A stretch of DNA of 64,000 nt, taken from assembly GCF_014042015.1 (NCBI RefSeq), contig NZ_CP059493.1, forward strand, positions 1,054,001 through 1,118,000. The letters run 5' to 3'. Below are positions 26,409-60,574 of the stretch, piece by piece; the stretch's first letter is position 1, and each line of letters begins with the position of its first letter. The position numbers and the translations under genes were made by a program. The notes under the pieces are model-generated. The model did no database searches. It was not told the DNA's origin and was given only the letters and a program-made list of their open reading frames with translations. Source of the DNA: Actinotalea sp. JY-7876. GTDB taxonomy: Bacteria > Actinomycetota > Actinomycetes > Actinomycetales > Cellulomonadaceae.

Positions 26409-28156
26409 GACCGCTCGCAGACGACCCGGCGACCTTCGCGGAGGACATGCTCGAGGGCTTCGTCGACCTCTACCCCTCCTACGTCCGGCTCGTGCCCGGC
26501 GGGGTGGTCCGCGCCGCGGGCCCGACGCCCGGCAAGGTCGCCGTCGTCGTCGGGGGAGGCTCGGGGCACTACCCCGCCTTCTGCGGTCTCGTCGGGCCCG
26601 GCCTGGCCGACGGCGCCGTCGTCGGCAACGTCTTCACGTCACCCTCGACCGCCGACGCCGTCTCGGTGGCACGCGAGAGCTCGGGCGGCGCCGGCGTCGT
26701 GCTGCTCACGGGCAACTACGCGGGCGACGTCATGAACTTCACGCTCGCGCGCGACCAGCTCGTCGCCGCCGGGATCCCGGCGGAGTTCCTCGTCGTGACG
26801 GATGACGTGGCCAGCGCGCCGCAGGAGGCCGACCGGCGCGGGATCGCGGGCGACCTCACGGTGTTCAAGGTCGCGTCCAGCGCGGCGGAGCACGGCCACG
26901 ACCTCGCGGGTGTCGTGGCGCTCGCGGAGCGCGCGAACGCCCGGACGCGCACGCTCGGCGTGGCGTTCGACGGCTGCACCATGCCCGGGACGAGCGAGCC
27001 GCTCTTCCGGGTCGCCGAGGGCACGGTGGGGCTCGGGGTGGGTATCCACGGCGAGCCGGGCATCGGGGAGATGCCCGTCATGACCGCCGCCGAGCTCGGC
27101 GAGCTCTTCGTCGAGCGGCTGCTGCAGGAGGCGCCGCCGGACGCCGGGACCCGGGTGACGGCGCTCCTCAACGGGCTGGGCCGGACCAAGTACGAGGAGC
27201 TCTTCGTGCTGTGGCGCACCGTGCGCCGGGCCCTCGGCCGGGCGGGCCTCGAGGTCGTCGCGCCCGAGGCGGGGGAGCTGGTCACCAGCCTCGACATGGC
27301 GGGCTGCTCGCTGACGCTGATGTGGCTGGACGACGAGCTCGAGCGGCACTGGACGGCACCCGTCGACACCCCGGCGCTGCGGCGCGGGGCCGTGCCGACC
27401 ACGACGTCGGCGTCGCGGGCGGCCGCGGTGGCGCGACCCGCTCCGGTCGCGGCGACGGCCGGCCGGCCCACGCCCGGGTCCGACGGCGCCCCGGCGGCCG
27501 CCGTCACCGAGGCGGAGCGCGTGCTCGCCCGCGCGGTGGTCCAGCACCTGGCGGTCGCGCTGGGTGCGGTCACGGACGCGGAGGCGCGCCTGGCCGAGCT
27601 CGACGCGGTCGCCGGCGACGGCGACCACGGCCGGGGCATGGTCCGGGGCCTCACGCACGCCCACCGCGCCGCCGAGGCCGCCGCCGAGGCCGGCGAGGGC
27701 GGGCGCGCGGCGCTCGTGGCTGCGGGCCGTGCGTGGGCCGACCGGGCGGGAGGCACGTCCGGGGTGCTGTGGGGCTCCGCGCTCGTGGCCGCCGCGGAGG
27801 CGATCGGCCCGTCCGCCGCCGACGTGACCGCCGCCGTGCGTGCGGGCCTCGACGCGGTCGCGACGCTGGGCGGCGCCTCGCTCGGGGACAAGACCCTGCT
27901 CGACGCCGCCCTGCCCTTCGCGGAGGCGCTCGCGCTGGCCGCCGACGGCGGGGCGGGGGTGCTCGACGCGTGGGCGGCCGCGGCGCCGACTGCGCTCGAG
28001 GCCGCGGAGGCGACCGCGGACCTGCGCCCGCGCGTCGGGCGCGCACGCCCGCTCGCCGAGCGCAGCGTGGGCTGGCCCGATCCGGGGGCGACGTCGTTCG
28101 CCCTCGTCGTCGACGCGTTGGCACGTCCCGTGGCCGAGGCGGGGGAGGGGCGATGA
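26405..28156 (+). CDS. DhaK-DhaL fusion kinase (dihydroxyacetone/tetrulose kinase family)
   Basis: A 583-residue fusion. The DhaK domain covers about residues 1-325 with [26 protein letters not shown] and the substrate-linking His in GVGIHGEPG (about 215). An Ala/Pro/Thr-rich linker (about 326-372) leads to the DhaL nucleotide-binding domain with the Mg-binding DGDHGRGM (about 405-412) and [17 protein letters not shown]-dependent fused kinases of this type act on dihydroxyacetone or, in the LerK/DerK group, on L- or D-erythrulose. Being next to an RpiB-like isomerase favours a tetrulose or branched ketose substrate, which is inference. Confidence 0.88.
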
Positions 28157-45595: not shown

Positions 45596-46285
45596 TCAGC
45601 GGGTGGATCCGTAGACGCCGCGCGACTGGTCGCGGACGAGCTGCCCGTTGTCCAGCTCGATCACGCGCTTGCGCATCTGGTCCACGATCTCGTCGTCGTG
45701 CGTGGCCATGACCACGGTGGTCCCGGTCCGGTTGATCCGGTCGAGCAGGCGCATGATGCCGACCGACGTCGTCGGGTCGAGGTTTCCCGTGGGCTCGTCG
45801 CACAGCAGGATCGACGGACGGTTGACGAAGGCCCGCGCGATGGCGACGCGTTGCTGCTCGCCGCCCGAGAGCTCGTGCGGGCGCCGCTTCTCCTTGCCGC
45901 CGAGCCCGACCAGCTCGAGCGTGTCCGGCACGGTGGTCATGATGTGGTGGCGCGGCTTGCCGATGACCTGCAGCGCGAAGGCGACGTTCTCGAAGACCGT
46001 CTTGTTCGGCAGCAGCCGGAAGTCCTGGAACACCGCGCCGATCTGGCGGCGCAGGTGCGGGACCTTCCACGTCGAGAGGGTCGACAGGTCGCGGCCCGCG
46101 ACGAAGACCTTGCCCGCGGTCGGCCGCTCCTCGCGCAGCACGAGGCGCAGGAACGTCGACTTGCCCGAGCCGGACGCGCCGACGAGGAAGACGAACTCGC
46201 CGCGTTCGACCTCGAGGTCGACGTCGTCCAGCGCGGGGCGGGCGCCGCGCGCGTAGACCTTGGTGACGTTCTCGAAGCGGATCAC
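45596..46285 (-). CDS. ftsE: Cell division ATP-binding protein FtsE
   Basis: A 229-residue ABC ATPase. Walker A is [10 protein letters not shown]-loop [17 protein letters not shown], signature [14 protein letters not shown] and Walker [15 protein letters not shown], then the H-loop [11 protein letters not shown]. The start is GTG 46283-46285 with GAGGA upstream. FtsE pairs with FtsX at the divisome. In most actinobacteria prfB lies close upstream on the same strand; here prfB is about 10.5 kb away beyond a block of plus-strand genes. Confidence 0.96.
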
Positions 46286-46589
46286 GCGGTCCTCGGGTGC
46301 TCGGGTTCAGGTCGTCGCCGCCGCCCGGGGAGCCGGGGTCACGCTGCCCCGCGGGCACCAGCGGTGCGCGACCACACTAAGCAGCGGTGTCCGCGCGTCC
46401 GGCCGGGACACGCCGCCCGACGGGGGAGGACCGAGCCCGTGCCGGGGCATCGTGCCCGTGCTGCGAGAATTCGCCCGGTCTATGGGGTCTTGTGCGGTTC
46501 CGCCGGGTCTGAGTCGAGTGCACACTGTGGTTGCGGTCGACCGGGCCCTCGCCCGGTCGCACAGACCTGCGTCGCCGGGAGGGTCCCCC
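46286..46589. other. Divergent ftsE/luxR intergenic region
   Basis: This 304-base region separates divergent ftsE and the LuxR-type gene. The one clear structure is a hairpin (CGACCGGGC / GCCCGGTCG, loop CCTC, 46538-46559) lying in the leader of the LuxR gene about 18 bases before its GGGAGG site. I could not place a convincing -35/-10 pair. No gene is seen in it. Confidence 0.5.
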
Positions 46590-49172
46590 ATGGCCGAACC
46601 CCTGCCCGCGTTCGTCGGGCGTGTCGACCTCCTCGACCGCGCCCGGCTGGCCCTGTCCGACCCGCACTCGCACGGGATCGTGATCCACGGTGCGCCCGGC
46701 GTCGGGACCACGGCATTCGTCCACCAGCTCGAGGCGGGTCTGGACCCCCGCGTCGCGGTGCGGCACACCCACAGCTCGGTCGGCTCAGGAGGCGTGCCGT
46801 ACGGCGCGGTGATGCCCCTGCTGCGCGACGGTGCCATCGATGCGGTCGAGCACCCCCTGCGTGCCCTGCGCTCCGCGGTCGACCACCTCGTCGCCCAGGG
46901 CGCCCACTCGGTGGTCCTGGTGGTCCACGGCGCCCGGCACGTGGACGCATGGAGCGCCCTCGTGCTGTCCACCCTCGCCTCGGTGCCGGACTGCTCCCTC
47001 GTGCTCGTCGCGGACTCGCTCCGCACGCTTCCGCGTGACATCGCGGTCCTCGTGCGCGAGGGCGCCATGACCGCCCTCGACATCCCGCCGCTCACGCTGG
47101 AGGAGACGGCTCAGCTCCTGGCCGGGCGCTGGGGCCACGCGCCGACGCGTCTGGTCGAGCGCCTGTGGCGAGCCAGCCGGGGGAACGTGCGCTCGCTCGT
47201 CGCCCTGGTCGAGCACGTCGACGACGTCGGCCCGGGGGCGCTGCTCGACGTCGACCGCTGGCCCGGGCGCGCCGGCCTCGACACGGCGTTGCCGACCGCG
47301 TACGCCGCGCTCACGCCCTCCGACCGCCGGCTGCTCGAGGTCCTCGCCCTCGCCGGAGGGCTCTCGCTGCCCCACGCGGCGCGGGTGGGGGGCCCCGACT
47401 CCGTGGACGCGCTCCTCAGCGGCGGCCTGGCAGGCGTCACTGCGCCGCCGCGGCCGACGGTGCGGGTCTGCACCGACGTCGTCGCGGCAGCGGTGCGGCA
47501 CCAGGTGGGCGCGGGGAGGCGGGTGCAGCTCCTGCACGCGACGTTCCCGAACGGCGAGCCGGAGGACGAGGACCTCGTGCTGCGGTACGCCCGGTGGGCC
47601 GCCGACGGCGGCGTCGGTGTGTCGCCCGGCACGGCCTCGCGGGCCGCCCGGCTCGCCCTCGAGGCCGGTGACGCCCCGACGGCGCTGCTCGTGCTCGACG
47701 CCGTCCCGCAGGCCGACCGGTCGCCGGCGCACGGCGTCCTCACCGGCCTGGCGCTGCTGCTCGCGGGAGAAGGACGGGGCGGGCTGGACGCGCTCCTGTC
47801 GCTGCCCCGGCTGCTGCCCGACGACGACGAGGCGGCCGCGCAGGTCGCCTGGGGCCTGGGCGCGTGCCCCGACCTGACGCTGCCGCACGATGCCGGGCGC
47901 TGGGGCACCGCGGGGCGGCTGCTGCTCGACCTCGCGCCGACGGCGTGGCGGTCGTGGCTGCCCGCGAGCCGGGCCGCCGTCGCCGCCGTGGCCGACCTGG
48001 CCGCCGGGGGAGCCCTGCCCGCGCTGGAGCCGTTGCGCGCGGAGGCGGTACGCCTCGCCGACCTGGCCGGCGCCGACGACGTCGACCGCGCGGCCTGGCA
48101 CGCCGCGGTCCGCTGGCGGCTCGCCGAGGCGATCGCCCTCACGGAGGGGCGACCCCCGGCGGGGCCGGGGAGCGGGACGGTCGTGGAGGGCGCCCCACCC
48201 GGCGGCGGGGGCGACGGGCTCGACGCGCGCACCCACGGGCGCCTGTCCGCGGTGCTCGTCGACTACCTCACGGGACGGGACCTCGTCGTCGTGCCCCCGG
48301 GTGCGGCGGACGGCGAGCCGGGCGTGACGGCGCTGGACGACCTGTGCGCCGGCCTCCACGCCCTGCGGGCGGGGGCCCTCGGCGAGGCGCGCGCCGCCCT
48401 GGAGGCCGTGCTCACCGTGCCTGTGGCGCTGGATGCCGCCGGCGCGCGCACCGTCGCGCACGCTGCCGCGGCCCTCGCGGCCGCCGAGGACGGCGACCGG
48501 TCCGCCGCCCGGGAGCACCTCGCCCGGGTGACGGGCTCCGGGCGCTGGCTGCCCGCGCGCGTCGCCACGCTGCTCGCCACCTCCGCCGAGCTGGCGCTCG
48601 GGGAGCCGGGTGCCGCGACCCGGCTGGTGGACGAGGGGCGGCACGACGCCGCCGCGGGCCGTCCGCTGATGGCGGCTCGCTTCTTCCTCGTGCCGGCGCT
48701 GGCCGGCGACCGCGAGGCGGCCGACCTCCTCGGCATGACGGCGGGGCACATCGACGGCCCGCTCGCGCGGTGGGGCTGGGCCCTCGCGGTCGGCCTGGCC
48801 GGCGACGACGCCGCCCCGCTGCTCGCGGCCGCGGCGGACGCCGAGGAGTGCGGACGGCGGGGTGTCGCGCGGAGCGTCGCGGCCCTGGCCCTCGCGGCCG
48901 CCGTGCGCCGTGACGACACGGAGCTGGCGCGGGAAGCCCGCGCGGTGCAGGCGCGCATCGGGGCGCGCAGCCGGCGCGCCGGCCTCTCCGGAGCTCACCA
49001 CCTGACGGTCAGGGAGTCGCAGATCGCCGCCCTGGTCACCCAGGGGCTCGACAACCACGAGGTGGCGAGGGCGCTGCACCTCTCGGTTCGCACGGTCGAG
49101 GGCCACGTCTCGCGCATCTACGCCAAGCTCGGCGTCGCGAGCCGGTCCGAGCTCGCCGCCCTCCTCGGCTGA
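46590..49172 (+). CDS. Large LuxR-type regulator with degenerate ATPase domain
   Basis: An 860-residue protein. The C-terminal LuxR HTH is clear (HHLTVRESQIAALVTQGLDN and SVRTVEGHVSRIYAKLGVAS). The N-terminus looks like an AAA/STAND ATPase domain (AFVGRVDLLDRARLAL, GLLSLP-rich helical middle). But the Walker A sequence is HGAPGVGTTAF without the Lys, and the Walker B position is VVLVVHGARHVD where VVDDAH is usual. The middle is Ala/Leu-rich helical repeats. It probably no longer hydrolyses ATP. ATG 46590 has GGGAGG upstream. It lies directly before the polysaccharide genes on the same strand and is their likely activator. Confidence 0.82.
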   Translation: MAEPLPAFVGRVDLLDRARLALSDPHSHGIVIHGAPGVGTTAFVHQLEAGLDPRVAVRHTHSSVGSGGVPYGAVMPLLRDGAIDAVEHPLRALRSAVDHLVAQGAHSVVLVVHGARHVDAWSALVLSTLASVPDCSLVLVADSLRTLPRDIAVLVREGAMTALDIPPLTLEETAQLLAGRWGHAPTRLVERLWRASRGNVRSLVALVEHVDDVGPGALLDVDRWPGRAGLDTALPTAYAALTPSDRRLLEVLALAGGLSLPHAARVGGPDSVDALLSGGLAGVTAPPRPTVRVCTDVVAAAVRHQVGAGRRVQLLHATFPNGEPEDEDLVLRYARWAADGGVGVSPGTASRAARLALEAGDAPTALLVLDAVPQADRSPAHGVLTGLALLLAGEGRGGLDALLSLPRLLPDDDEAAAQVAWGLGACPDLTLPHDAGRWGTAGRLLLDLAPTAWRSWLPASRAAVAAVADLAAGGALPALEPLRAEAVRLADLAGADDVDRAAWHAAVRWRLAEAIALTEGRPPAGPGSGTVVEGAPPGGGGDGLDARTHGRLSAVLVDYLTGRDLVVVPPGAADGEPGVTALDDLCAGLHALRAGALGEARAALEAVLTVPVALDAAGARTVAHAAAALAAAEDGDRSAAREHLARVTGSGRWLPARVATLLATSAELALGEPGAATRLVDEGRHDAAAGRPLMAARFFLVPALAGDREAADLLGMTAGHIDGPLARWGWALAVGLAGDDAAPLLAAAADAEECGRRGVARSVAALALAAAVRRDDTELAREARAVQARIGARSRRAGLSGAHHLTVRESQIAALVTQGLDNHEVARALHLSVRTVEGHVSRIYAKLGVASRSELAALLG

Positions 49173-49197
49173 CACGCAGGCCGCGCCCGGCCCACCT

Positions 49198-49219
49198 CAC
49201 CCGTTCGGGCTAACGGGTG
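49198..49219. promoter_or_regulatory. Inverted repeat upstream of the polysaccharide operon
   Basis: CACCCGTT and AACGGGTG are perfect 8-base arms around a 6-base centre (CGGGCT), 26 bases after the LuxR-type stop. It could be an operator for the downstream operon or a weak terminator of the regulator gene. No T-tract follows. Confidence 0.45.
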
Positions 49220-49250
49220 CGTGCGATCCCGGCTCGACGCGGTGGGAACA

Positions 49251-49277
49251 CAGGTGTGACGGCGATGAAACAGGTGT
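49251..49277. promoter_or_regulatory. Direct repeat boxes CAGGTGT
   Basis: CAGGTGT occurs at 49251-49257 and 49271-49277, 20 bases apart (about two helical turns), each preceded by an A-rich base pair (ACA, AAA). A -10-like TAACGT lies at 49311-49316, 34 bases downstream. The spacing fits activator sites for a LuxR-type protein. Confidence 0.45.
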
Positions 49278-49381
49278 AGTGCCCCATATCGGACAGAACG
49301 CCACGCCCCCTAACGTCGGAGCACGACGTCATGCAGGTCGACGCGGACCGACGTACCGCCCCCGACGGGAGGACAGACCCC

Positions 49382-50692
49382 ATGCCGCTCGACTCCTTCT
49401 TCACCGATCTGAGGATCGGTGAGATCTCCGCCGAACAGCTCTGGGCTGCGTTCCCGCTCGCCGCTGCCGGCATCGTCGTGTGGAGCCTGTGGCTCTACCG
49501 CGTGATCCTGTCGCGCCGTGCCAGCCCGGTCGTCAACGACTTCCGCACCACGACCTCGGTCGTCGTCCCGTCCTTCCACGAGGACCCGGACATCCTCATG
49601 CGCTGCTTGCACAGCTGGCTGTCGCAGGAGCCCACCGAGGTCATCATCGTGCTCGACCTCGCCGACACCGAGGCGCAGCAGCGGATCGTGGCGCTCGGGG
49701 ACCCCCGGGTCCGCGCCGTGATGTTCCGGCACGCAGGCAAGCGGTCGGCCCTCGGCGTCGGGATGCGTCTGGCCACCAGCGAGCTGCTCGTCCTCGTGGA
49801 CTCGGACACCTCATGGCGCCCCGGCCTGCTCGAGGCCGTCCAGATGCCGTTCGTGGACCCCGGCGTGGGCGGGGTCAGCACCCAGCAGAACGTCTACGAG
49901 CGCGGCTCGAGCGTGTGGCGCCGCATCGCCGACTGGCTGGTCGACCTGCGCTACTACGACTACGTCCCGGCGATGGGCGCCGCCGGCGCCGTCGCCTGCC
50001 TGTCCGGGCGCACGGCGGCCTACCGCCGCGCGGCCGTCGAGCCCGTGATCGCGAACCTCGAGGACGAGTTCTTCCTCGGCCGACGGTGCATCGCCGGTGA
50101 CGACGGGCGCCTGACGTGGCTCGTCCTGGCGTCCGGGTACACGACGGTGCACCAGTCGACAGCACGGGCGCTGTCCATGTTCCCCGCGTCGTTCCGGGCC
50201 TTCGTCAAGCAGCGCGTCCGGTGGAGCCGGAACTCCTACCGCTGCTACCTGACGGCGATCTACAAGGGGTGGTTGTGGCAGGTGCCGTTCGTCACGAAGA
50301 TCACCGTGCTGCAGATCCTCCTCACCCCGGTCACGATGGGCCTGACGCTCGGCTACCTGGTCTTCGCCCGCCTCGAGGCGACGCCCGTGAGCATCGCTCT
50401 CGCCGTGGGCTGGGTGCTGCTCGGCCGCGGTATCCGCGGCTGGTCGCACCTGAGGAAGCACCCCGGGGAGATCCTCCTGCTGCCGCTCCTCGCGCTGATC
50501 GTGATCATGGTGGCGTTGCCGATCAAGCTCTACGCCTTCGTCACCATGAACAAGCAGGGCTGGCTGACCCGGCACGCCGACCAGATGGGCGGCGACGGCC
50601 AGACGGCGAGCACGATGCGCCGCGAGGCGTCCGTCCTGCAGGCCCCCGCCGTTCCCGTGACGGCTCGCGAGGCGGAGAAGGTCCCCGCATGA
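49382..50692 (+). CDS. Processive GT2 glycosyltransferase (hyaluronan synthase/NodC-like)
   Basis: A 436-residue membrane synthase. One N-terminal helix (AAAGIVVWSLWLYRVIL) precedes a GT-A domain with TTSVVVPSFHEDPDIL, VLVDSDTSW (DxD, about residues 140-142), CLSGRTAAYRR, the GDDGRLT motif (about 239-245) and QRVRW (277-281, the Q-x-x-R-W of processive enzymes). At least three C-terminal helices follow. GDD(R), SGR-YR and QxxRW together resemble hyaluronan synthase and NodC more than cellulose synthase. It should polymerise and export a polysaccharide. The start ATG 49382 has GGGAGG upstream. The next gene overlaps its stop (ATGA). Confidence 0.85.
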   Translation: MPLDSFFTDLRIGEISAEQLWAAFPLAAAGIVVWSLWLYRVILSRRASPVVNDFRTTTSVVVPSFHEDPDILMRCLHSWLSQEPTEVIIVLDLADTEAQQRIVALGDPRVRAVMFRHAGKRSALGVGMRLATSELLVLVDSDTSWRPGLLEAVQMPFVDPGVGGVSTQQNVYERGSSVWRRIADWLVDLRYYDYVPAMGAAGAVACLSGRTAAYRRAAVEPVIANLEDEFFLGRRCIAGDDGRLTWLVLASGYTTVHQSTARALSMFPASFRAFVKQRVRWSRNSYRCYLTAIYKGWLWQVPFVTKITVLQILLTPVTMGLTLGYLVFARLEATPVSIALAVGWVLLGRGIRGWSHLRKHPGEILLLPLLALIVIMVALPIKLYAFVTMNKQGWLTRHADQMGGDGQTASTMRREASVLQAPAVPVTAREAEKVPA

Positions 50693-52830
50693 GCCGCCGC
50701 CGCGTGCCCCGGCCCTCGTCACGACCCGCCTGTCGCGCCGCGACCGTCGTCGCGCTCGCCGTCGCGCTCGCCTGCACCGCCGCGCCGGCCTCCGCGAGCG
50801 AGAGCGCGGACCCGGGGGGCGGCGGGTCGCCGGCGGCCGAGGAGTCCGCCCGCGAGGCCGCGACCGACCGCGCCGCGGCGGACGACGACGCCGCGACGGT
50901 CCTCGGCTCTGCCTACCCCGGCAACCCGGTGACGGAGCCTTCGCTGGTCGCTGACGAGGAGGACCGGTTGGCGGACGTCCAGACGGTCGGCCGGATGATC
51001 CAGTGGGGCAAGCTCCCGGTGTTCGGCGCGTACCGCCTCAGCACCGGCTCGGCCTACACGCTCGTGCTCACCCGGCGCAGCGAGCCGTACACGCTGTCCG
51101 ACCTCCTGGAGCTCGCACCCCAGACGTTCGTCCGTGAACCGGACGGCGCCTACCTGCTCTCGGAGAACATCGTCGTGCAGCCCGGAGCCCGGCTCGTGAT
51201 GAGCAACACGGGGCCGCTGACCATCCGGATGGCGAGCGACACGGACCGCTTCGTCTCGATCGTGAACATGGGCGGCGAGCTCGAGATCGTCGGCACGGCC
51301 GCGTCCCCCGTCACGCTGACGAGCTGGAACCGCGACTCCGGGACCGAGGACGAGACCACGCAGGACGGCCGCGCGTACGTGCGCTCCGTCGGCGGCAAGG
51401 TGACCCTCGAGGGCACCACCTTCAGCCACCTCGGGTTCTGGAGCGGTCGCACGGGCGGGGTCGCCCTGACGGGCGTCGACCGTCCCAGCGAGGGCGCGCT
51501 GGAGGAGTACGGACGTGACCTCGGTGACGCGGTCGCCTCCAACAACGCCGCCAGCGGCCTCGACGTCCCCTTCGGGACGGTGCCGGACGCCAACCCGACG
51601 GTGGTGGACCCGACCGTGGTGGACCCGGCCGTGGTGGACCCGACCGTGGTGGACCCGGCCGTGCCGCGCGGCGAGGTGCTCCAGGACGCCACCGCCGGGT
51701 CCCCGGTCGAGGGCCTGCTGCCCGCGGGCACCTTGCCGGTGCCGTACACGGACGACGAGGACCCGGAGTACAGCTACGTCTCCGCGAAGGTGGAGGACGT
51801 GACCTTCGACGGGAACGCCTTCGGCCTCTTCATCTCGAGCGCCAACGGCGTCGACATCTCCGGCTCGACCATCACCGGGAGCCTCGTGGACGGCCTGACG
51901 ATGCACCGGTACGTGGTCAACGCGGCCGTCACCGACACGGTCTCGGAGGACAACGCCGGCCACGGGTTCGTGCTCGCCCGCGCGACCACCGGCATCGTGC
52001 TGAGCGAGGTCTCCGCGCGCCGCAACAGCGGCAGTGGGATCGTCATCCGCGGCAGCGCCCTGGCGAACGGGCCGAGCGCGACCGGGATGCCGGTGGGCGA
52101 CTACGGCAACAACTCCGTGAGCAACAGCAGCGCCGACGAGAACGCCCGGTACGGGATCGAGATCATCGGCGGCCGGAACATCAGCCTGAACTCCAACGAC
52201 GTGACGGCGAACGACATGGGGATCGTCGTCCGCGAGGGCGCCTCCGACATCACGCTCGTCGGCAACCACTTCGAGGACAACGTCCGGCACGCCGTGGCCC
52301 TGCGTGACGCTGCCACGGACGTCGAGATTACCGGCAACATCATCTCGGACAGCCCGACCGGGGTGTACGTCCGGGACTCCTCCGCCACCGTCGTGCGGAA
52401 CACCTTGGACGGTCTGACGAACCACGCCGTGACCGCCATCGGCCTCACACCGGGGACGCTCGTCGAGGCGAACACCGTCTCGGGGCGTGGCCCCAGCGCG
52501 GTGGACGTCAAGCGCGCCGAGGGTGCGACCGTGGGCGAGAACGACCTGTCCGACTGGGAGAGCACGAAGCCCTTCTGGACCGCCGTGCGCAACACGCTGC
52601 AGCCGCTGACCCTCATGTGGCTCGCGCTGGGGCTCATCGTCATCAGCACCGCGGTCAAGGGGGCTCGCCAACGGCGCGAACGGCGCCACCCCTACCAGGA
52701 GCAGGCCAAGATGGCCGACCTCGTCGAGGCACCCGTGGACCTCGGCAGGGCCGAGGACCCGCCGGGCGACGGCGGGAAGCACGCGCGCGGCGGGCGCGAG
52801 CTCGTCGATGCCGAGCGGGGCGGACAGTGA
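50689..52830 (+). CDS. Membrane-anchored right-handed beta-helix protein
   Basis: A 713-residue surface protein. The signal peptide ends near ASASES. An N-terminal domain (about residues 90-300) has short beta repeats (LVMSNTGPLTIRM, GGKVTLEGTTFSHLGFW). After a VVDP repeat linker (about 305-324) comes a NosD/AlgG-type beta-helix of CASH repeats (DVTFDGNAFGLFISSANGVDI, GIEIIGGRNISLNSNDVTAN, NTVSGRGPSAVDV). One helix (LTLMWLALGLIVISTAV) and a basic cytoplasmic tail end it. Such helices bind or modify polysaccharides (AlgG epimerase, lyases). Coupled by ATGA to the synthase and by GTGA to the next gene, it probably tailors the exported polymer. Confidence 0.82.
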   Translation: MSRRRVPRPSSRPACRAATVVALAVALACTAAPASASESADPGGGGSPAAEESAREAATDRAAADDDAATVLGSAYPGNPVTEPSLVADEEDRLADVQTVGRMIQWGKLPVFGAYRLSTGSAYTLVLTRRSEPYTLSDLLELAPQTFVREPDGAYLLSENIVVQPGARLVMSNTGPLTIRMASDTDRFVSIVNMGGELEIVGTAASPVTLTSWNRDSGTEDETTQDGRAYVRSVGGKVTLEGTTFSHLGFWSGRTGGVALTGVDRPSEGALEEYGRDLGDAVASNNAASGLDVPFGTVPDANPTVVDPTVVDPAVVDPTVVDPAVPRGEVLQDATAGSPVEGLLPAGTLPVPYTDDEDPEYSYVSAKVEDVTFDGNAFGLFISSANGVDISGSTITGSLVDGLTMHRYVVNAAVTDTVSEDNAGHGFVLARATTGIVLSEVSARRNSGSGIVIRGSALANGPSATGMPVGDYGNNSVSNSSADENARYGIEIIGGRNISLNSNDVTANDMGIVVREGASDITLVGNHFEDNVRHAVALRDAATDVEITGNIISDSPTGVYVRDSSATVVRNTLDGLTNHAVTAIGLTPGTLVEANTVSGRGPSAVDVKRAEGATVGENDLSDWESTKPFWTAVRNTLQPLTLMWLALGLIVISTAVKGARQRRERRHPYQEQAKMADLVEAPVDLGRAEDPPGDGGKHARGGRELVDAERGGQ
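51601..51660 (+). repeat. In-frame 30-bp tandem repeat (two exact copies)
   Basis: A 30-base unit occurs twice in exact tandem, each made of two 15-base halves that encode VVDPT and VVDPA. This gives four VVDP motifs in the linker of the beta-helix protein. Exact DNA identity at third positions suggests recent slippage and a length-variable linker. Confidence 0.85.
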
Positions 52831-54029
52831 CCCGGGGCCGCGCGCTGCGGCTGCTCGCGGGGTCGCTCGTGGTCCTGGCAGCGGGCTGCACCTCCCCGGC
52901 ACCCGAGCCGCCGCCGTCGGACGACGCACGTCCGGAGGCGACGTCGGCGCCGATCGAGCCGGAGGAGAGCCCCGGCGGTGCGCCGGTGCTGGGCGAGGAG
53001 GGCGAGCCGGTCTCGCCGTCGCCCGAGCCCAGCGACGACGAGGATGACGAGGACGGCGACCGGGGTCGCCGCCGCGGCCCCGAGCTGCTCTCCGAGCCCT
53101 CCCCGTTCCCGGAGTGGATGACGAGGCCGAGCCCCGACGACGGGCTGTGCCCGACGCCGACGGTCCGGGTCTCGGACGCGGACGAGCTGCAGGACGCTCT
53201 GGACGACGCGGGCCCCGGCACCGTCATCGGTCTGGCGCCCGGCGTCTACATCGGCAAGTTCGTCACGACGGCGTCCGGCACCGCCGACGCGCCGGCGCGT
53301 CTGTGCGGGGAGGCGGACGCCGTCCTCGACGGCGACAACCAGCGCGGCGGGTACGTCCTTCACCTGGACGGTGCGCAGCACTGGGTGCTCAGCGGTTTCA
53401 CCGTGCGCAACGGCCAGAAGGGCGTGATGGCGGACGGCACGACCGGGACCACCATCAGTGGGCTCACCGTCTACGGCATCGGTGACGAGGGGATCCACCT
53501 GCGGGCCCACAGCACGGACAACCTGGTCGCGCACAACACGATCAGCGACACCGGTCGGCGCCGGGAGAAGTTCGGCGAAGGCGTCTACGTGGGCACCGCG
53601 AACAGCAACTGGTGCCGGATCACCGACTGCGACCCGGACCTGAGCGACCGCAACCAGGTCATCGGCAACGCGGTCTACGCCGGCACGAGCGAGAGCGTCG
53701 ACATCAAGGAGGGCACGAGCGACGGGCTCGTCGAGGGCAACCAGTTCGACGGCTCGACCATCACCGGCGCGGACTCGTGGGTCGACGTCAAGGGCAACGA
53801 CTGGACGATCCGGGACAACGTGGGTCACGGGACCCCGATGGACGGCTTCCAGACGCACGACGTCTACGAGGGTTGGGGCGAGCAGAACGAGTTCCTCGAC
53901 AACGAGGGCTCCCTGGACGACCCGGAGGGCTTCCTGGTCGCGATGCGCCCGGCGAACGACAACGTCGCCCGCTGCTCCAACCGGTTGCTCGGCGACATCG
54001 GAGAGCTCTCGAACGAGCGATGCGTATGA
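52827..54029 (+). CDS. Lipoprotein with right-handed beta-helix (polysaccharide-lyase-like)
   Basis: A 400-residue protein starting at GTG 52827 inside the previous stop (GTGA). The signal peptide ends in LAAGC (Cys about 21). A disordered acidic/Pro region (about 22-110) leads to a beta-helix. Its N-cap VSDADELQDALDDAGPGTVIGLAPGVY, with GTADAPARLCGE, is typical of PL6/pectate-lyase-like and chondroitinase-B-like helices. Repeats follow (WVLSGFTVRNGQKGV, SVDIKEGTSDGLVEGNQFDG, WVDVKGNDWTIRDN). It could cleave, trim or bind the polymer made by the upstream synthase. Catalytic residues cannot be assigned by eye. Confidence 0.8.
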   Translation: MTRGRALRLLAGSLVVLAAGCTSPAPEPPPSDDARPEATSAPIEPEESPGGAPVLGEEGEPVSPSPEPSDDEDDEDGDRGRRRGPELLSEPSPFPEWMTRPSPDDGLCPTPTVRVSDADELQDALDDAGPGTVIGLAPGVYIGKFVTTASGTADAPARLCGEADAVLDGDNQRGGYVLHLDGAQHWVLSGFTVRNGQKGVMADGTTGTTISGLTVYGIGDEGIHLRAHSTDNLVAHNTISDTGRRREKFGEGVYVGTANSNWCRITDCDPDLSDRNQVIGNAVYAGTSESVDIKEGTSDGLVEGNQFDGSTITGADSWVDVKGNDWTIRDNVGHGTPMDGFQTHDVYEGWGEQNEFLDNEGSLDDPEGFLVAMRPANDNVARCSNRLLGDIGELSNERCV

Positions 54030-54105
54030 CGCCCCACGCCTGCTGAGCGCCGTCGGGCCCTACCGACAACCGCTGCTCCACCCACGACCAGCACCACGCC
54101 ACCGG

Positions 54106-54153
54106 ACCCACACACCACCGGACCCCACACACCACCGGACCCCACACACCACC
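54106..54153. repeat. 17-bp tandem repeats before the UDP-glucose dehydrogenase gene
   Basis: The unit ACCCCACACACCACCGG is repeated almost three times (16, 17 and 15 bases). It lies in the only gap of the polysaccharide operon (54030-54206). The C/A-rich strand is the coding-strand sense and would be unstructured in RNA. No gene is present in this gap. Confidence 0.75.
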
Positions 54154-54206
54154 AGCAACCGTCGGCGACGCCGCACGGCGGGTCCGCCACACCCTCAGGA
54201 GGATCC

Positions 54207-55682
54207 ATGAGCACGATCGCCACCCCTGCCGGGCAGCCGGCCGTCGTCCTGCATCCCCGCCTCACCGTCATCGGCACCGGCTACCTGGGCGCGACCCATG
54301 CCGTCTGCATGGCGGCCGTCGGGTACGACGTCCTGGGCGTCGACGTCGACCCCCGCAAGATCGAGGCGCTCAACAACGGTGAGGTCCCCTTCTTCGAGCC
54401 CGGGCTGCCGGAGCTGCTGAAGGACGCGCTCGCCAGCGGCCGCCTGCGCTTCACGCAGGACTTCGCCGAGGCCGCCGAGTTCGGTGACGTCCACTTCATC
54501 TGCGTCGGCACCCCGCAGGCGAAGGGCTCACCGGCCGCGGACCTGTCCTACGTCCACGCCGCCGTCGAGTCCCTCGCGGTGAACCTGCGCCGCCGGGCGC
54601 TCGTCGTCGGCAAGTCGACGGTGCCGATCGGCACCGCCGCCCAGCTGCGCGACCGCATCCATGCCGTCGCCCCCGCCGGCACCGCCGTCGAGCTGGCGTG
54701 GAACCCGGAGTTCCTGCGCGAGGGGTACGCCGTCGCGGACACCCTGCAGCCGGACCGCATGGTCTTCGGCGTGGAGTCCCCGTGGGCCGCGGCCCAGCTC
54801 GCCGCGGCCTTCGCGCCCGTGGTCGACCGGGGCACGCCCGTCGTGCAGTGCGATCTCGCCACGGCGGAGCTCGTCAAGGTCGCGGCGAACTCGTTCCTCG
54901 CCACGAAGATCTCCTACATCAACGCCATGGCGGAGGTCTGCGAGGTCACCGGGGCCGACGTCAACCTCCTGGCCCGGGCGCTGTCCTACGACGAGCGCAT
55001 CGGCGGCCGCTTCCTCAAGCCCGGGCTGGGCTTCGGTGGCGGCTGCCTGCCCAAGGACATCCGTGCCTTCGCCGCCCGGGCCGCGGAGCTCGGGGTCGGT
55101 CAGGCGGTGTCCTTCCTGCACGAGGTCGACGCCATCAACGTCCGTCGACGTCGGCGCACGGTCGACCTGGTCCGCGAGATCTCCGGCGGAAGCCTCACCG
55201 GGGTGAAGGTCGCCGCGCTCGGGGCGGCCTTCAAGCCCAACTCCGACGACATCCGTGACGCCCCGGCCCTGGACGTCGCGCGAATGCTGCACCAGGAGGG
55301 TGCCGCGGTCCGGGTGTACGACCCGCAGGCGATGGCCAACGCCCGCCGTGCCTATCCGGATCTCAGCTACGCGGACTCGCTGCCGGCGGCCGTGCAGGGC
55401 GCCGACGTGGTGGTGCTCCTCACCGAGTGGGAGCAGTTCCGCCACGCCGACCCGGAGATGATGGGCTGGCTCGTCGCGCAGCGGCGGGTCGTCGACGGGC
55501 GTCACGCGCTCGACGCCGATGCCTACCGCGCCGCCGGATGGGAGTACCGGGCGCTCGGCCGGCCGGCCACACCGGCCACCGTGGAGCTGGCGACGGCGGC
55601 GGCCGACAGCCTCGACCTGTCGAGCCGGATGGACCTCGCTGCGCAGCTGCTGCGGCGACCTGCGGTCGACGCCCTCCGTTGA
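54207..55682 (+). CDS. UDP-glucose 6-dehydrogenase
   Basis: A 491-residue UDP-glucose/GDP-mannose dehydrogenase. The NAD site is TVIGTGYLGATHAV (about residues 20-33), the middle contains VGKSTVPIGTA, AWNPEFLREG (catalytic Glu region) and NSFLATKISYINA, and the active-site Cys is in GLGFGGGCLPKD (about 280). The C-terminal UDP-binding domain includes KPNSDDIRDAPAL. The residues favour UDP-glucose, giving UDP-glucuronate, the expected precursor for the upstream hyaluronan-synthase-like enzyme. A perfect AGGAGG precedes ATG. The next gene begins inside its stop codon. Confidence 0.92.
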   Translation: MSTIATPAGQPAVVLHPRLTVIGTGYLGATHAVCMAAVGYDVLGVDVDPRKIEALNNGEVPFFEPGLPELLKDALASGRLRFTQDFAEAAEFGDVHFICVGTPQAKGSPAADLSYVHAAVESLAVNLRRRALVVGKSTVPIGTAAQLRDRIHAVAPAGTAVELAWNPEFLREGYAVADTLQPDRMVFGVESPWAAAQLAAAFAPVVDRGTPVVQCDLATAELVKVAANSFLATKISYINAMAEVCEVTGADVNLLARALSYDERIGGRFLKPGLGFGGGCLPKDIRAFAARAAELGVGQAVSFLHEVDAINVRRRRRTVDLVREISGGSLTGVKVAALGAAFKPNSDDIRDAPALDVARMLHQEGAAVRVYDPQAMANARRAYPDLSYADSLPAAVQGADVVVLLTEWEQFRHADPEMMGWLVAQRRVVDGRHALDADAYRAAGWEYRALGRPATPATVELATAAADSLDLSSRMDLAAQLLRRPAVDALR

Positions 55683-56728
55683 GCGACCAGGGGCCCGGGT
55701 CCGGGCCGGGGCGCCGCACGCGCGGCGTCCGAGGCGGTGGTGGCACGCAGGCCGGTGCCACCACCGCCGTGGCGCTCGTCCTGATCCTCCTCGCCGCCTG
55801 CGGCCGACCCGCCGAGCCCGTCCCGACGGCGTCCGACCGGCCGCCCGCGTTGGTCGCCGGGCGCGGTTCGACCCCCACCGGCGTCGATCCTGTCGACATC
55901 CCTGGCGCGCCGGTCTTCGCCGACCCGCCACCGGAGGCGTCGGCGCACGGACCCTCCGGGGCCCCGTCGTCCCAGCTCGACGCCCTCCTGCCCACGGGGG
56001 ACGAGGTCGCGGCGTGGTCGGCGGCCGAGCTGATCGCCTGGGCGGGCCAGCTGGAGGGTGTCACGCTGCCGGCCGCAGGGACATGGCGCTCGCTGACCGT
56101 CGGCCTGTTCTTCGCGGCGGACGGCAGCGAGCGGCTCGACCGCATCGAGACGGACCTGAAGGTGGCGACGCCGGAGGCGGTGGACGCCCTCGTCGCCCAG
56201 CAGGTGGCGAGCCCGCCGCGCGGCTCGACCGTGCTCGACGTGATCGAGGGCACCGATGAGGACGACGGCCGCCGGACGGTCACGCTCGTCCTGGGGGCGG
56301 CGGGCAGCTCGGCGGCCTCCGTCGACGTCGTCGCCGAAGCCGACGGCAGCATGCTCCACGTCCAGGACCTACCCCGCCGTGACGCCGCACGCCCTGACCT
56401 GTCCGAGGAGCGGGTCCGCGCCCTCGTCTCGCGCCTGACCGAGGGCGCTCGCCCGCAGGACTGGCAGCTCAGGTTCGCGCGGCTCACGCTCGTCCGTGAC
56501 CAGCCGCCGATGGTCATGGTCGCGTGGTCGGCGCCGGGACAGGACGTGCCCCGGGCCGTCACGGCCGCGCAGGCGACGTTCGGCCACCTGACGTTCGAAC
56601 CCGTCCAGGTGAACCAGTACCGGATGACCTCCGACTTCGAGTACCCCGGGGCGGCGACGAGCGGCATGCTCTCGGCCAGCACCGAGAGCGACGGCACCAC
56701 GCGGGTCGAGCTGGAGGCGCGCGGGTGA
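55679..56728 (+). CDS. Lipoprotein of the polysaccharide locus, unknown function
   Basis: A 349-residue frame that opens with TTG 55679, overlapping the dehydrogenase stop (TTGA); no ATG or GTG gives a signal peptide. The lipobox is LILLAAC (Cys about 40). The mature domain has no family I recognise: an alpha/beta pattern with LDALLPTGDEVAAWSAAELIAWAG, GTWRSLTVGLFFAADGSERLDRIETDL and a C-terminal part with TFGHLTFEPVQVNQYRM. Together with the synthase, beta-helix and dehydrogenase genes it could be an assembly or retention factor. It is the last gene of the block and faces prfB. Confidence 0.7.
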   Translation: MSDQGPGSGPGRRTRGVRGGGGTQAGATTAVALVLILLAACGRPAEPVPTASDRPPALVAGRGSTPTGVDPVDIPGAPVFADPPPEASAHGPSGAPSSQLDALLPTGDEVAAWSAAELIAWAGQLEGVTLPAAGTWRSLTVGLFFAADGSERLDRIETDLKVATPEAVDALVAQQVASPPRGSTVLDVIEGTDEDDGRRTVTLVLGAAGSSAASVDVVAEADGSMLHVQDLPRRDAARPDLSEERVRALVSRLTEGARPQDWQLRFARLTLVRDQPPMVMVAWSAPGQDVPRAVTAAQATFGHLTFEPVQVNQYRMTSDFEYPGAATSGMLSASTESDGTTRVELEARG

Positions 56729-56792
56729 GCCCGTGGCCCGCGGGGGTGCCGACAGGCGCTGTCCGATCCTCGCGCGCGGCGCGAACCCCGCG

Positions 56793-57905
56793 TCAGGCGT
56801 CGGCACCGCCGCTGCGCCGCCACCGGATGCCGGCCTCGATGAAGTCGTCGATGTCGCCGTCGAACACCGCGGAGGGGTTGCCGACCTCGTGCTCGGTCCG
56901 CAGGTCCTTGACCATCTGGTACGGCTGCAGGACGTAGGAGCGCATCTGGTCGCCCCAGCTCGCCTTGATGTCGCCCGCGAGCTCCTTCTGGGTGGCCTTC
57001 TCCTGCGCCTGGCGCAGGAGGAGCAGGCGCGACTGGAGCACGCGCAGCGCGGCGGCCCGGTTCTGGATCTGGCTCTTCTCGTTCTGCATCGACACCACGG
57101 TGCCGGTGGGCAGGTGGGTCAGGCGCACGGCGGAGTCCGTCGTGTTGACCGACTGCCCACCCGGCCCGGACGAGCGGAACACGTCGACCTTGAGCTCGTT
57201 CTCGGGGATGTCGATGTGGTCGGTCTGCTCGATGAGCGGGACCACCTCGACCGCGGCGAACGACGTCTGGCGGCGCCCCTGGTTGTCGAACGGGGAGATG
57301 CGCACGAGGCGGTGCGTCCCGGCCTCGACCGACAGGTTGCCGAACGCGTAGGGCACCTTGACCTCGAAGGTCGCGGACTTCAGGCCGGCCTCCTCGGCGT
57401 AGGACGTGTCGAGCACAGCGGTCGGGTACCCGTGGCGCTCGGCCCAGCGCAGGTACATGCGCAGCAGCATCTCGGCGAAGTCGGCGGCGTCGACGCCGCC
57501 GGCTCCCGCGCGGATGGTCACGACGGCCTCGCGCGAGTCGTACTCGCCGTTGAGGAGGGTGCGCACCTCGAGCGCACCGAGGTCCCGGCGCAGGCCGGCC
57601 AGCTCGGACTCGGCGTCGGCGAGCGTGTCGGCGTCGTCCTCCTCCTGCGCCATCTCCACGAGCGTCTCGAGGTCCTCGAGGCGCTGCTCGAGCTCCGCGA
57701 TGCGGTCGAGCTCCGACTGCGCGTGCGAGAGGGCGGACGTGACCTTCTGGGCGGCGTCGGCGTCGTCCCACAGGTCCGGCGCGGACGCCTTCTCCGACAG
57801 GTCGGCGATGCGGGCGCGCAGGCGCTCGGGGTCGGTCACGGCGCGGATGGTGCCGAGCGTCGAGCGCAGGGCGGCGATCTCGGAGGTGAAGTCGGTGGCT
57901 GCCAC
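56793..57905 (-). CDS. prfB: Peptide chain release factor 2
   Basis: A 370-residue RF2 that recognises UGA and UAA. The SPF tripeptide (RISPFD) and the GGQ motif ([16 protein letters not shown]) are present, with the coiled-coil domain 1 ([18 protein letters not shown]). It is a single frame from GTG 57903-57905; there is no CTTTGAC-type programmed frameshift, as known for actinobacteria. TAGCCT at -14 to -9 suggests an almost leaderless mRNA. It is usually near ftsE; here a polysaccharide block separates them. Confidence 0.96.
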
Positions 57906-58021
57906 GACCGTCCAGGCTAGTCGAGCGCGGGAGCGGCGCGATGCGGACGCCCGACCCTAGGATCCTCGGCGGGCGACGAAGCCCCGGCCACGCGGCCGCC
58001 CCCGAGCCGAAGACGAGCGAG

Positions 58022-60574
58022 ATGACTGCCTCCACCCACGTCCCCGGGACGGTCGTGCCCGCCACCGAGCCGCTGCACGACGGCTGGTCCCTGCAGGCCG
58101 TCGGCGGCCCCGTGCCCGCCGAGCTGCGCGACAGGTCCGTGCCCGCCACGGTCCCGGGCAGCGCGCACACCGACCTCCTCGCCGCCGGGCTCATCCCCGA
58201 CCCGTACCTGGACCGCAACGAGAGCGCGCTCGTCTGGGCGCACCGCACCGACTGGCGCTACACGACGGCGTTCGCGGCCACGGCGCCGGCGGACGACGAG
58301 CGCGTCGACCTGGTCGCCCACGGGCTCGACACGGTCGCGACCGTGGAGCTCAACGGCACCGAGGTCGCCCGCACCGCCAACATGCACCGCAGCTACCGCG
58401 TGGACGTGCGCTCGCTGCTGGCCGACGGCGAGAACGCGCTCACCGTGTCCTTCCGCTCCGCGCTCGAGCACGCCGAGGAGGTCGAGCGGCAGCTCGGACG
58501 CCGCGACCACGTGTACGACCACCCGTTCAACATGGTCCGCAAGATGGCGTGCTCCTTCGGCTGGGACTGGGGCCCGGACCTGCAGACGGCCGGCATCTGG
58601 CGGCCGATCGGGCTCGAGCGGTGGCGCGTGGCGCGCCTCGCGCAGGTCCGCCCGCTCGTCACCGTCGACGGCGCCACGGGCCGCGTGGTCGTGTACGCCA
58701 CCGTCGAGCGCTCGGGCCTGGGCGACGACGACGTCGACCTCGTCCTGAGCGCCGAGGTCGCCGGGCAGCGCGCGGAGGTCGTCGTGCCCGCGGGGAGCAC
58801 GGACGGCGTCGTCGAGCTCACGGTGCCCGACGTGGACCTGTGGTGGCCGCGGGGCTACGGGCAGCAGCCGCTGCACGACCTCGTGGTCGAGGTGGCGCGC
58901 CCGGGTGGCGAGGTGCTGGCGCGCGTGGAGCGGCGCATCGGCTTCCGCACGGTCGAGGTCGACCAGACGCCGGACGAGCACGGCACGCCCTTCACGCTCG
59001 TCGTCAACGGCCGGCCGGTCTTCGTCAAGGGCGCCAACTGGATTCCCGACGACCACTTCCTCACGCGCATCGACCGGGACCGGTACGCGCGGCGCATCGC
59101 CCAGGCGACGGACGCCAACATGAACCTGCTGCGCATCTGGGGCGGCGGGATCTACGAGGACCACGACTTCTACGAGCTGTGCGACGAGGCGGGCGTGCTC
59201 GTGTGGCAGGACTTCCTCTTCGCGTGCTCGTCGTACGCCGAGGAGGAGCCGATCCGCGGCGAGGTCGAGGCCGAGGCGCGCGAGAACGTCGTCCGCCTCA
59301 TGCACCACCCGTCGCTCGTGATCTGGAACGGCGCCAACGAGAACGTCTGGGGCTACTGGGACTGGGGCTGGCCGGAGCAGCTCGAGGGCCGCACCTGGGG
59401 TCTCGGCTACTACGCGGACCTGTTCCCGGCCGTGCTGGCCGAGCTGGACCCGACGCGGCCGTACTCGCTCAACAGCCCGTTCACGCCGGGCTCGACCGAC
59501 ACCGGGACGCACCCCAACCACCCCGACCACGGCACGCACCACGAGTGGGAGTGCTGGAACCGGCGCGACTACGTCCACTACCGCGACGACGTGCCGCGGT
59601 TCTGCTCGGAGTTCGGCTGGCAGGGCCCGGCCACGTGGGCGACTCTCACCCGGTCCGTCCCCGCCGACGCGCTGAGCCAGGAGTCCGAGGCGTTCCTGCT
59701 CCACCAGAAGGCCGAGGACGGCAACGGCAAGCTGAACCGCGGCCTCGAGCCGCACCTGCCCGTCCCGGAGGACTTCGAGGACTGGCACTGGGCGACGTCG
59801 CTCAACCAGGCGCGTGCGGTCCGGTACGCCGTCGAGCACTACCGCTCGTGGTGGCCGCGCACGGCGGGCAGCGTCGTGTGGCAGCTCAACGACTGCTGGC
59901 CGGTCACGTCCTGGGCGGCCGTCGACGGCGACGAGCGGCCCAAGCCGCTCTGGTACGCGCTGCGGGCGGCGTACGCCGACCGCCTGCTCACGGTCCAGCC
60001 GCGGGACGGCCGGCTCGTGGTCGTGGCGGTCAACGACACGGACCAGCCGTGGGAGACGACGCTGAAGAGCGCGCGCACGACCTTCTCGGGGGAGGTGCTG
60101 GCGGCCGCCGACGGCCCCCTGGTCGTGGCTCCGCGCAGCGCCGTGGCGGTCGCGCTGCCCGACGACGTGCTCGCCGTCGGTGACGAGAGCCGCGAGCTGC
60201 TGGCCGTGCGCGCCACGCCGCAGGAGGCGCCGGCGGCGGGCCCGGCCGCTGCGGTCGTGGCGCAGGCGGTGCACACCTGGGCCGAGGACAAGGACCTGGC
60301 GCTGGACCCCGAGCCGGTCGAGGTCGCGGTGCAGCCGGGGCCGGGCGGGGCCACGGTGCGGGTGCGAGCGCGCTCGTTCGTCCGGGACCTCGCGCTCCTG
60401 GTGGACAAGGTCCACCCCGACGCGCGGGTCGACGACCAGCTCGTCACCCTGCTGGCGGGTCAGGAGGTCGTCCTGGGCGTGCGCGGTCCGGCCGACGCCG
60501 ACTGGGCGCGCCTCGCGTCGCCGGAGGTCCTGCGGACCGCCAACGCGCTGGTCGGAGGCGCCCGCACGGTGTGA
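58022..60574 (+). CDS. GH2 beta-mannosidase
   Basis: An 850-residue glycoside hydrolase family 2 enzyme of the beta-mannosidase type. The N-terminal jelly roll (SVPATVPGSAHTDLLAAGLI) is typical of MANBA-like proteins, then CSFGWDWGPDLQTAG and FVKGANWIPDDHFL in the barrel. The acid/base Glu is in WNGANENVWGY (about 440) and the nucleophile Glu in FCSEFGWQG (about 530). It has no signal peptide, so it works on mannobiose-like products inside the cell. TAGGAT at 57958-57963 may be its -10 box. The adjacent ABC importer presumably supplies the substrate. Confidence 0.9.
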   Translation: MTASTHVPGTVVPATEPLHDGWSLQAVGGPVPAELRDRSVPATVPGSAHTDLLAAGLIPDPYLDRNESALVWAHRTDWRYTTAFAATAPADDERVDLVAHGLDTVATVELNGTEVARTANMHRSYRVDVRSLLADGENALTVSFRSALEHAEEVERQLGRRDHVYDHPFNMVRKMACSFGWDWGPDLQTAGIWRPIGLERWRVARLAQVRPLVTVDGATGRVVVYATVERSGLGDDDVDLVLSAEVAGQRAEVVVPAGSTDGVVELTVPDVDLWWPRGYGQQPLHDLVVEVARPGGEVLARVERRIGFRTVEVDQTPDEHGTPFTLVVNGRPVFVKGANWIPDDHFLTRIDRDRYARRIAQATDANMNLLRIWGGGIYEDHDFYELCDEAGVLVWQDFLFACSSYAEEEPIRGEVEAEARENVVRLMHHPSLVIWNGANENVWGYWDWGWPEQLEGRTWGLGYYADLFPAVLAELDPTRPYSLNSPFTPGSTDTGTHPNHPDHGTHHEWECWNRRDYVHYRDDVPRFCSEFGWQGPATWATLTRSVPADALSQESEAFLLHQKAEDGNGKLNRGLEPHLPVPEDFEDWHWATSLNQARAVRYAVEHYRSWWPRTAGSVVWQLNDCWPVTSWAAVDGDERPKPLWYALRAAYADRLLTVQPRDGRLVVVAVNDTDQPWETTLKSARTTFSGEVLAAADGPLVVAPRSAVAVALPDDVLAVGDESRELLAVRATPQEAPAAGPAAAVVAQAVHTWAEDKDLALDPEPVEVAVQPGPGGATVRVRARSFVRDLALLVDKVHPDARVDDQLVTLLAGQEVVLGVRGPADADWARLASPEVLRTANALVGGARTV

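Follow-up and report, generated by a model that had tools for sequence, protein, structure and literature searches.

A gene block between ftsE and prfB

The stretch of DNA analyzed here (the window) comprises 64,000 nucleotides of the genome of Actinotalea sp. JY-7876, which consists of one contig of 3.55 Mb. According to the open reading frames, six plus-strand genes occupy the space between ftsE and prfB, four of which encode a GT2 polysaccharide synthase, two beta-helix proteins (BH1 and BH2) and a UDP-glucose 6-dehydrogenase type enzyme (UGDH). With moderate confidence we assign these four genes to a synthase-dependent exopolysaccharide system; its product would be a secreted glucuronate polymer, probably a homopolymer, that undergoes editing and trimming outside the membrane. 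The genes and features of the region are the following:

45596-46285, minus strand: ftsE, above the FtsE model cut-off
46590..49172, plus strand: LuxR-type regulator, GerE domain with E 1.5e-15 (Pfam)
49173..49381, plus strand: intergenic stretch preceding the synthase, with two copies of ACAGGTGT at 49250 and 49270; possible operator
49382..50692, plus strand: processive-type GT2 polysaccharide synthase, NodC/hyaluronan synthase (HAS)-like, 436 aa, ATG start at 49382
50689..52830, plus strand: BH1, AlgG-like right-handed beta-helix with N- and C-terminal hydrophobic segments
52827..54029, plus strand: BH2, predicted lipoprotein beta-helix, relative of the alginate lyase PsAly (6kfn)
54207..55682, plus strand: UGDH, predicted to supply UDP-glucuronate
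55679..56728, plus strand: orphan lipoprotein (last gene), outside the conserved system
56793-57905, minus strand: prfB, TIGR00020 with 486 bits (cut-off 370)

The arrangement was compared with that in other genomes. The best 80 of 318 synthase relatives in a scan of named genomes represent 79 distinct loci; these were selected by nearness of the synthase, and the counts describe linkage among near relatives and not prevalence. BH1 was found in 78, BH2 in 72 and UGDH in 64 of the 79 loci, and the order GT2-BH1-BH2-UGDH on one strand is retained in 63 of them, under 11 family and 26 genus labels (each label count includes one mislabelled Vibrio (Vibrionaceae) record). Because this order recurs in 63 of 79 loci of other genomes, the genes are real and their combination is not due to chance. 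The initial annotation had proposed a system of five genes, of which four are retained. The last lipoprotein occurs in none of the 79 named loci and, among 39 genomes, in its own only; given its absence from these loci and from the 38 other relatives, a five-gene operon is rejected. This protein carries a hydrophobic segment at residues 24-42 (hydropathy scan) and a lipobox-like LLAAC seen by eye, and had no Pfam or NCBIfam match at E ≤ 0.001. Clustering of the neighboring genes gave no fifth family beyond 15 of the 79 loci, with a rough gene filter that recovered the four core families themselves in 58–64 loci only.

In a class-wide sample of 394 genomes, 36 had a synthase match at E ≤ 1e-50, the window's own genome among them. 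Identity was at least 60 % in 31 of these (the own genome, 29 others and one partial match, which was left out) and 36–40 % in the remaining five. In the resulting wider sample of 29 loci, BH1 was present in 28, BH2 in 27 and UGDH in 23 (one of the latter at 30 % identity); the sole locus lacking BH1 stops 176 bases past the synthase. Beside the five distant GT2 relatives (L075-L079) no match to BH1 or BH2 was found (0 of 5). Among close relatives the set is patchy: of 99 genomes, 7 gave a BH1 match (the own genome being one of these, and two of the matches weak), and BH1 was matched in all 12 genomes behind named BH1 loci. Overall, the four-gene set is common to many cultured actinobacteria, soil bacteria of the genus Streptomyces and of the Cellulomonas group among them.

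Some loci deviate in their composition. Herbiconiux sp. (L085, 1984-14303) holds two adjacent copies of the set, the dehydrogenase of the second copy lying upstream. Several Streptosporangiales loci (within L099-L157) show tandem BH1 duplicates and several Actinomadura duplicate BH2 too; such duplicates perhaps represent a pair of editing enzymes that differ in specificity. The dehydrogenase gene runs divergently to the synthase, and not downstream of it, in 14 class-sample loci (L057-L070). On the Curtobacterium TC1 plasmid pTCL (L166, 9941-14512) a distant GT2 gene (32 %) is followed by an annotated glycosyl hydrolase gene and then a dehydrogenase, possibly a sister system with a hydrolase in place of the lyase. 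Two records with actinobacterial copies are likely contaminated or mislabelled: L088 (label Vibrio cholerae 35D) has 66.8 % GC (guanine plus cytosine) and shares two stretches of 82–84 % identity with Arthrobacter L084, and in L095 (label Stenotrophomonas maltophilia P13) only the last 1670 bases correspond to Microbacterium L097, at 98 % identity.

The five genes from the synthase onwards had been described as plus-strand genes with overlapping starts and stops. The strand is as described and overlaps are found at three of the four junctions: ATGA at 50689 (synthase/BH1), GTGA at 52827 (BH1/BH2) and TTGA at 55679 (UGDH/last lipoprotein), where the TTG start is uncertain. BH2 and UGDH do not overlap and are separated by a gap of 177 nt, inside which a 17-bp tandem repeat lies (54095-54153). 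The spacing between the LuxR gene and the synthase is 209 nt.

Families of the four encoded proteins

In the synthase, the motifs GDD (239-241), SGR-YR (SGRTAAYR, 208-215) and QxxRW (QRVRW, 277-281) were all located as initially annotated, together with DSD at 140-142 and WLTR at 394-397. Compared with class I HAS, DSD, GDD and QxxRW are present and SGR replaces the SGP of HAS. The best NCBIfam model is NodC (TIGR04242, E 1.3e-37, 129.7 bits, under its cut-off of 550), followed by MftF (3e-12), PgaC (4e-12) and HpnI (4e-7), and the best PDB relatives are hyaluronan synthases (8smm, E 8.8e-19). In a tree of 41 rows, 29 of them from its own family, the family forms one clade (support 96/97) apart from NodC, HAS and PgaC; Cellulomonas synthases are nearest to the window copy, and two Alg8-like synthases are separate from the family (100/100). 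Deep branches were not used, with PgaC, the HAS piece and L078 on very long branches. The initial annotation had made its model depend on the synthase not grouping with non-polymerizing GT2 enzymes. Here NodC and HAS are nearest by best matches, and the tree was built without a non-polymerizing GT2 reference.

R210 of SGRTAAYR is invariant in all 27 rows of alignment A1, four distant relatives included. The equivalent site reads TGRMSMFR in three Alg8-like synthases of Rhizobium plasmids, SGVIAAFR in PgaC, CGPCAMYR or CGPCAIYR in NodC, and SGPLGMYR and GGPLGAY in two solved HAS. The Arg shared with the Alg8-like synthases (SGR/TGR) is a possible mark of uronate acceptors, judged from few references. 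Alg8-like and Alg44-like are our own labels for genes that no NCBIfam model names as such and to which Pfam assigns GT2 and PilZ; the Alg8-like genes adjoin a GDP-mannose-type dehydrogenase and an AlgG-like gene, in L168 and L205 also a PilZ gene. L205 (Rhizobium sp. T136 plasmid, 8861-26418) combines a relative of the GDP-mannose-type dehydrogenase with Alg8-like, PilZ-bearing Alg44-like and AlgG-like genes, and a BH2-like gene (33 %) lies about 9 kb from these alginate-type genes on the other strand.

The dehydrogenase scored 333 bits against the UDP-glucose dehydrogenase 4a7p and 184 bits against the GDP-mannose dehydrogenase 1mfz, and its closest PDB enzymes are UDP-glucose dehydrogenases. 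Two control dehydrogenases encoded beside AlgG-like genes on Rhizobium plasmids fall on the GDP-mannose side (434 vs. 234 and 381 vs. 220 bits). The general nucleotide-sugar dehydrogenase model TIGR03026 is matched with 422 bits (cut-off 189.8), and the UDP-glucose equivalogs stay under their cut-offs (TuaD 371 of 700, AglM 351 of 670 bits). By sequence UGDH is of the UDP-glucose type, bearing out the initial naming, and the NCBIfam and PDB scores speak against the GDP-mannose or ManNAc (N-acetylmannosamine) type that had been named as fatal to the model. Two further matches exist in the genome, one 62 % identical and interrupted by a single stop codon, the other 30 % identical, so that the locus UGDH may be a dedicated copy.

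For BH2, residues 110-371 match the alginate lyase PsAly of Paenibacillus FPU-7 (6kfn, presumably filed under PL31) with E 3.6e-45. As no PDB sequence other than 6kfn was matched at E ≤ 1, the lyase initially suspected in the lipoprotein beta-helix is retained as a PsAly relative and the relation to PL6 is rejected. According to the available part of the structural study, the catalytic residues of PsAly are Tyr184 and Lys221, its first-site cation ligands Glu181, Glu216 and Asp219, and its fully conserved residues Lys128, His154, Arg156, Asp250 and Lys252 (PMC6796002). In an alignment of 40 BH2 sequences, Tyr184, Lys221, Glu181, Glu216, Asp219, Lys128, His154, Arg156, Lys252 and His278 are identical in all 40, Asp250 is kept in 37, and Asp246 and Gln276 in 38 each; every one of the 13 active-site residues counted is conserved in 37–40 of 40. 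By family and active site BH2 is thus a predicted PsAly-type lyase. PsAly prefers polymannuronate as substrate, in the part of the same source available (PMC6796002).

For BH1, a single-sequence search gave a weak AlgG match (E 0.025), and with a profile of 46 rows AlgG became the top match (E 1.6e-6). Alignment by hhalign against two rhizobial AlgG-like proteins resulted in a probability of 97.5 (E 5e-12, 337 columns), compared to 0.3 for BH2 against AlgG as negative control. The AlgG model NF038177 matches 25 of the 46 aligned members at E ≤ 0.1 (best E 1.9e-9), not including the window copy. Its cut-off of 700 bits is unmet by BH1, and the two rhizobial AlgG-like proteins fall short of it too (259 and 285 bits). 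The NosD model matches 45 and general beta-helix repeat models match 44 of the 46 members. Since profile search, AlgG model and hhalign agree and the BH2 control is negative, BH1 is likely homologous to AlgG.

The active site of BH1 is less clearly related. In AlgG, as far as the available text goes, the His of the DPHD motif is the probable proton abstractor, Tyr314 holds a water molecule and an Arg neutralizes charge (PMC4444821). The alignment of 46 BH1 members conserves H406 in 45, R407 in 46 and R431 in 46. In the single-sequence register H406 and R431 align with the His and Arg of AlgG across one gap, with Asp, Pro and Tyr absent; in the hhalign register R407 aligns with the Arg, nothing falls on the His and DPHD is lost. 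Of the AlgG-like beta-helix initially described, the homology is likely and the DPHD motif was not found in the 46 aligned members. BH1 is a candidate polymer-level C5-epimerase. A 15-bp tandem repeat within BH1 (51593-51663) encodes VVDP repeats in a variable linker.

The initial placement of both beta-helices at the membrane is consistent with hydrophobic segments of BH1 at residues 14-32 and 640-658 (simple hydropathy scan) and with a lipobox-like LAAGC in BH2, seen by eye; the hydropathy scan flagged no hydrophobic segment in BH2.

A variable site and the upstream region

The ftsE site was compared in 29 loci from the 38 other relatives with ftsE. In 15 of the 29, prfB lies within 300 bp of ftsE, and so it does in 8 of the 18 same-genus loci (L176-L178, L180, L181, L184-L186). 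It is found at 0.66–1.05 kb in three further loci; in 11 it did not occur within the stretch covered, which in some cases ends at a contig edge. In the window a 10-kb block fills the junction (46285-56793). Because prfB adjoins ftsE in relatives and the block lies between them in the window, the junction is a variable site. Transfer and loss are both possible histories of the block, and its GC content of 73.9 %, against 72.8 % in the surroundings, is uninformative as a mark of recent arrival. Of 72,556 plasmid records, 303 matched the synthase, none with at least 60 % identity, and none matched BH1; plasmid spread of the set was rejected. On the other side of the junction, a glycoside hydrolase family 2 enzyme (57941-60574, Pfam) adjoins prfB.

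The upstream LuxR-type protein had been proposed as a switch of the system. Its GerE domain was confirmed (E 1.5e-15), and a general linkage was not: any LuxR similarity occurs in 4 of the 79 named loci, and a full-length LuxR gene adjoins the synthase in 2 of 79 besides the window. It was thus discarded as a general part of the system, and as regulator of the four-gene set it is a candidate. The sequence ACAGGTGT occurs twice in the 64-kb window, both times ahead of the synthase and 20 bp apart; with an expectation of 0.75, and at least two copies in 15 of 100 shuffles, only the placement is notable. In the window as well as in L082 and L083, the other two loci with full-length LuxR, CAGGTRTNAC precedes the synthase by 131–149 nt; it is present in 14 of 205 loci overall, three of these being copies of the window stretch. 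A motif related to ACAGGTGT is similarly placed in L082 and L083 and was also seen upstream of the synthase in the Streptomyces loci L117 and L145. Any connection of these motifs with LuxR is a guess.

The proposed polymer and its rivals

The sequences themselves establish the enzyme families, the active site of the lyase, the type of the dehydrogenase and the conserved linkage of the genes; the identity of the polymer, its linkage type, the epimerase activity and the location at the surface are inferred. From these families, the following pathway would result. Inside the cell, UGDH would oxidize UDP-glucose to UDP-glucuronate, which the synthase would polymerize alone or together with a housekeeping UDP-sugar, and the chain would be exported through the synthase's own membrane channel in the fashion of hyaluronan synthase. 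BH1, anchored in the membrane so that its beta-helix faces outward, would bind the emerging chain and probably C5-epimerize its uronates as AlgG does. BH2, a putative lipoprotein of the outer face, would cleave the chain by beta-elimination, setting its length or releasing it. As polymer we favor a beta-1,4-linked glucuronate homopolymer (glucuronan), possibly with iduronate, since both modifying-enzyme families act on homopolymeric uronates, contiguous 1,4-linked uronates being the substrates of the relatives of BH1 and BH2, and since the SGR motif points in the same direction. beta-D-Mannuronate and beta-D-glucuronate differ at C2 only, and one syn elimination could fit both. More tentatively, and with clearly less confidence than in the system as such, BH1 would convert the glucuronan at polymer level into a chain containing both glucuronate and iduronate, and BH2 would trim it; the system would then be a Gram-positive equivalent of the alginate machine, complete in itself.

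The alginate gene set comprises AlgD, Alg8, Alg44, AlgG and a lyase. Similar to it, the locus unites a synthase, a sugar-nucleotide dehydrogenase, an AlgG-like beta-helix and a predicted uronate lyase, so that the alginate-like logic of the initial annotation is found again, as is the lack of a PilZ-domain gene (none in six proteins scanned with Pfam at E ≤ 0.001). In contrast to alginate, the dehydrogenase is of the UDP-glucose type, the synthase NodC/HAS-like and the lyase PsAly-like, and outer-membrane parts are missing along with PilZ. Compared with PsAly itself, the homology of about 260 aa, the catalytic Tyr184/Lys221 and the first cation site are shared, whereas BH2 is a predicted lipoprotein in a synthesis locus.

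Several observations weigh against the glucuronan system. The full gene order is missing in 16 of the 79 named loci, of which 8 are on stretches ending early, 1 has an upstream dehydrogenase (42 %) and 7 lack UGDH nearby. In the 29 loci of the wider sample, UGDH shares the strand of the synthase in 9 (downstream in 8, among them one just 30 % identical, and upstream in 1), lies on the other strand in 14 and was not found in 6; therefore, it can be divergent or missing. BH1 is without the active-site Asp, Pro and Tyr of AlgG and its coil register is ambiguous. Window BH2 differs from PsAly at Asp188, Lys191, Tyr195 and Tyr244, residues given as present in PsAly but not as conserved in the available part of the source (PMC6796002); as they are not kept, the substrate preference of BH2 may differ from that of PsAly. 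The sequence of the synthase resembles NodC and HAS, enzymes that use N-acetylglucosamine (GlcNAc), more closely than it does the Alg8-like synthases; in two rhizobial loci the latter are about 22 % identical to it (E 9e-6 to 2e-5), and the third rhizobial locus gave no Alg8-like match at 1e-4. Finally, HAS operons also pair a synthase with UGDH, so that UGDH alone gives no homopolymer.

Because the synthase is HAS/NodC-like, a hyaluronan-like alternating polymer stays a live rival, although we regard it as unlikely. Here UDP-glucuronate and UDP-GlcNAc would both be used and BH1 and BH2 would act on the glucuronate. Class I HAS operons consist of hasA-hasB and share with the locus a single self-contained GT2 synthase and a UGDH, HAS being the best solved relatives and NodC the best NCBIfam model. 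The locus differs from them in the SGR found instead of SGP at the HAS/NodC motif and in the additional AlgG-like protein and lyase, whose relatives act on homopolymeric uronates. A recurrent GlcNAc-specific neighbor enzyme is lacking as well, a weak argument since housekeeping UDP-GlcNAc would serve.

A mixed glucose-glucuronate polymer of the cellobiuronate kind, with UDP-glucose as second donor, appears improbable: both donors would be at hand, UDP-glucose being the likely substrate of the co-encoded UGDH, but nothing in the analysis points to such a chain. Still less can be said for a cell-wall-bound teichuronic-type glycopolymer in place of a free exopolysaccharide. The 371 bits of UGDH to the TuaD model would fit but are under the cut-off of 700, and no further neighbor family, hence no priming or ligating enzyme, occurs beyond 15 of the 79 loci. 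Alginate itself, made with an unusual dehydrogenase, would account for the AlgG-like and PsAly-like proteins and is hardly credible given a UGDH of UDP-glucose type where the two rhizobial AlgG-linked controls are of GDP-mannose type, the absence from the six proteins of the PilZ domain that accompanies the rhizobial synthase in L168 and L205, and a synthase outside the Alg8-like clade.

For the favored glucuronan, polymers of the same kind are made by Sinorhizobium meliloti M5N1CS and Peteryoungia rosettiformans, members of a different phylum. Of these, S. meliloti M5N1CS also forms a glucuronan lyase, and the genes of bacterial glucuronan biosynthesis were stated to be unknown in 2023, according to the available part of that paper (PMC10180729). 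A survey of synthase-dependent operons treats Gram-positive PNAG (poly-N-acetylglucosamine) and Pel and, in its available part, names no Gram-positive alginate-like set (PMC7112194). Among the literature matches listed from open-licence PMC (PubMed Central) papers no description of the four-gene set was found, and within this limit the set is undescribed.

Alginate is the well-studied polyuronate machine and is Gram-negative; the four-gene set would be an actinobacterial counterpart with few parts, making polyuronate synthesis, polymer-level epimerization and self-trimming testable. The set also suggests a native role that PsAly-like lyases might have. If the interpretation is true, actinobacteria would possess an alginate-like matrix, the genes and structure of which have not yet been described.

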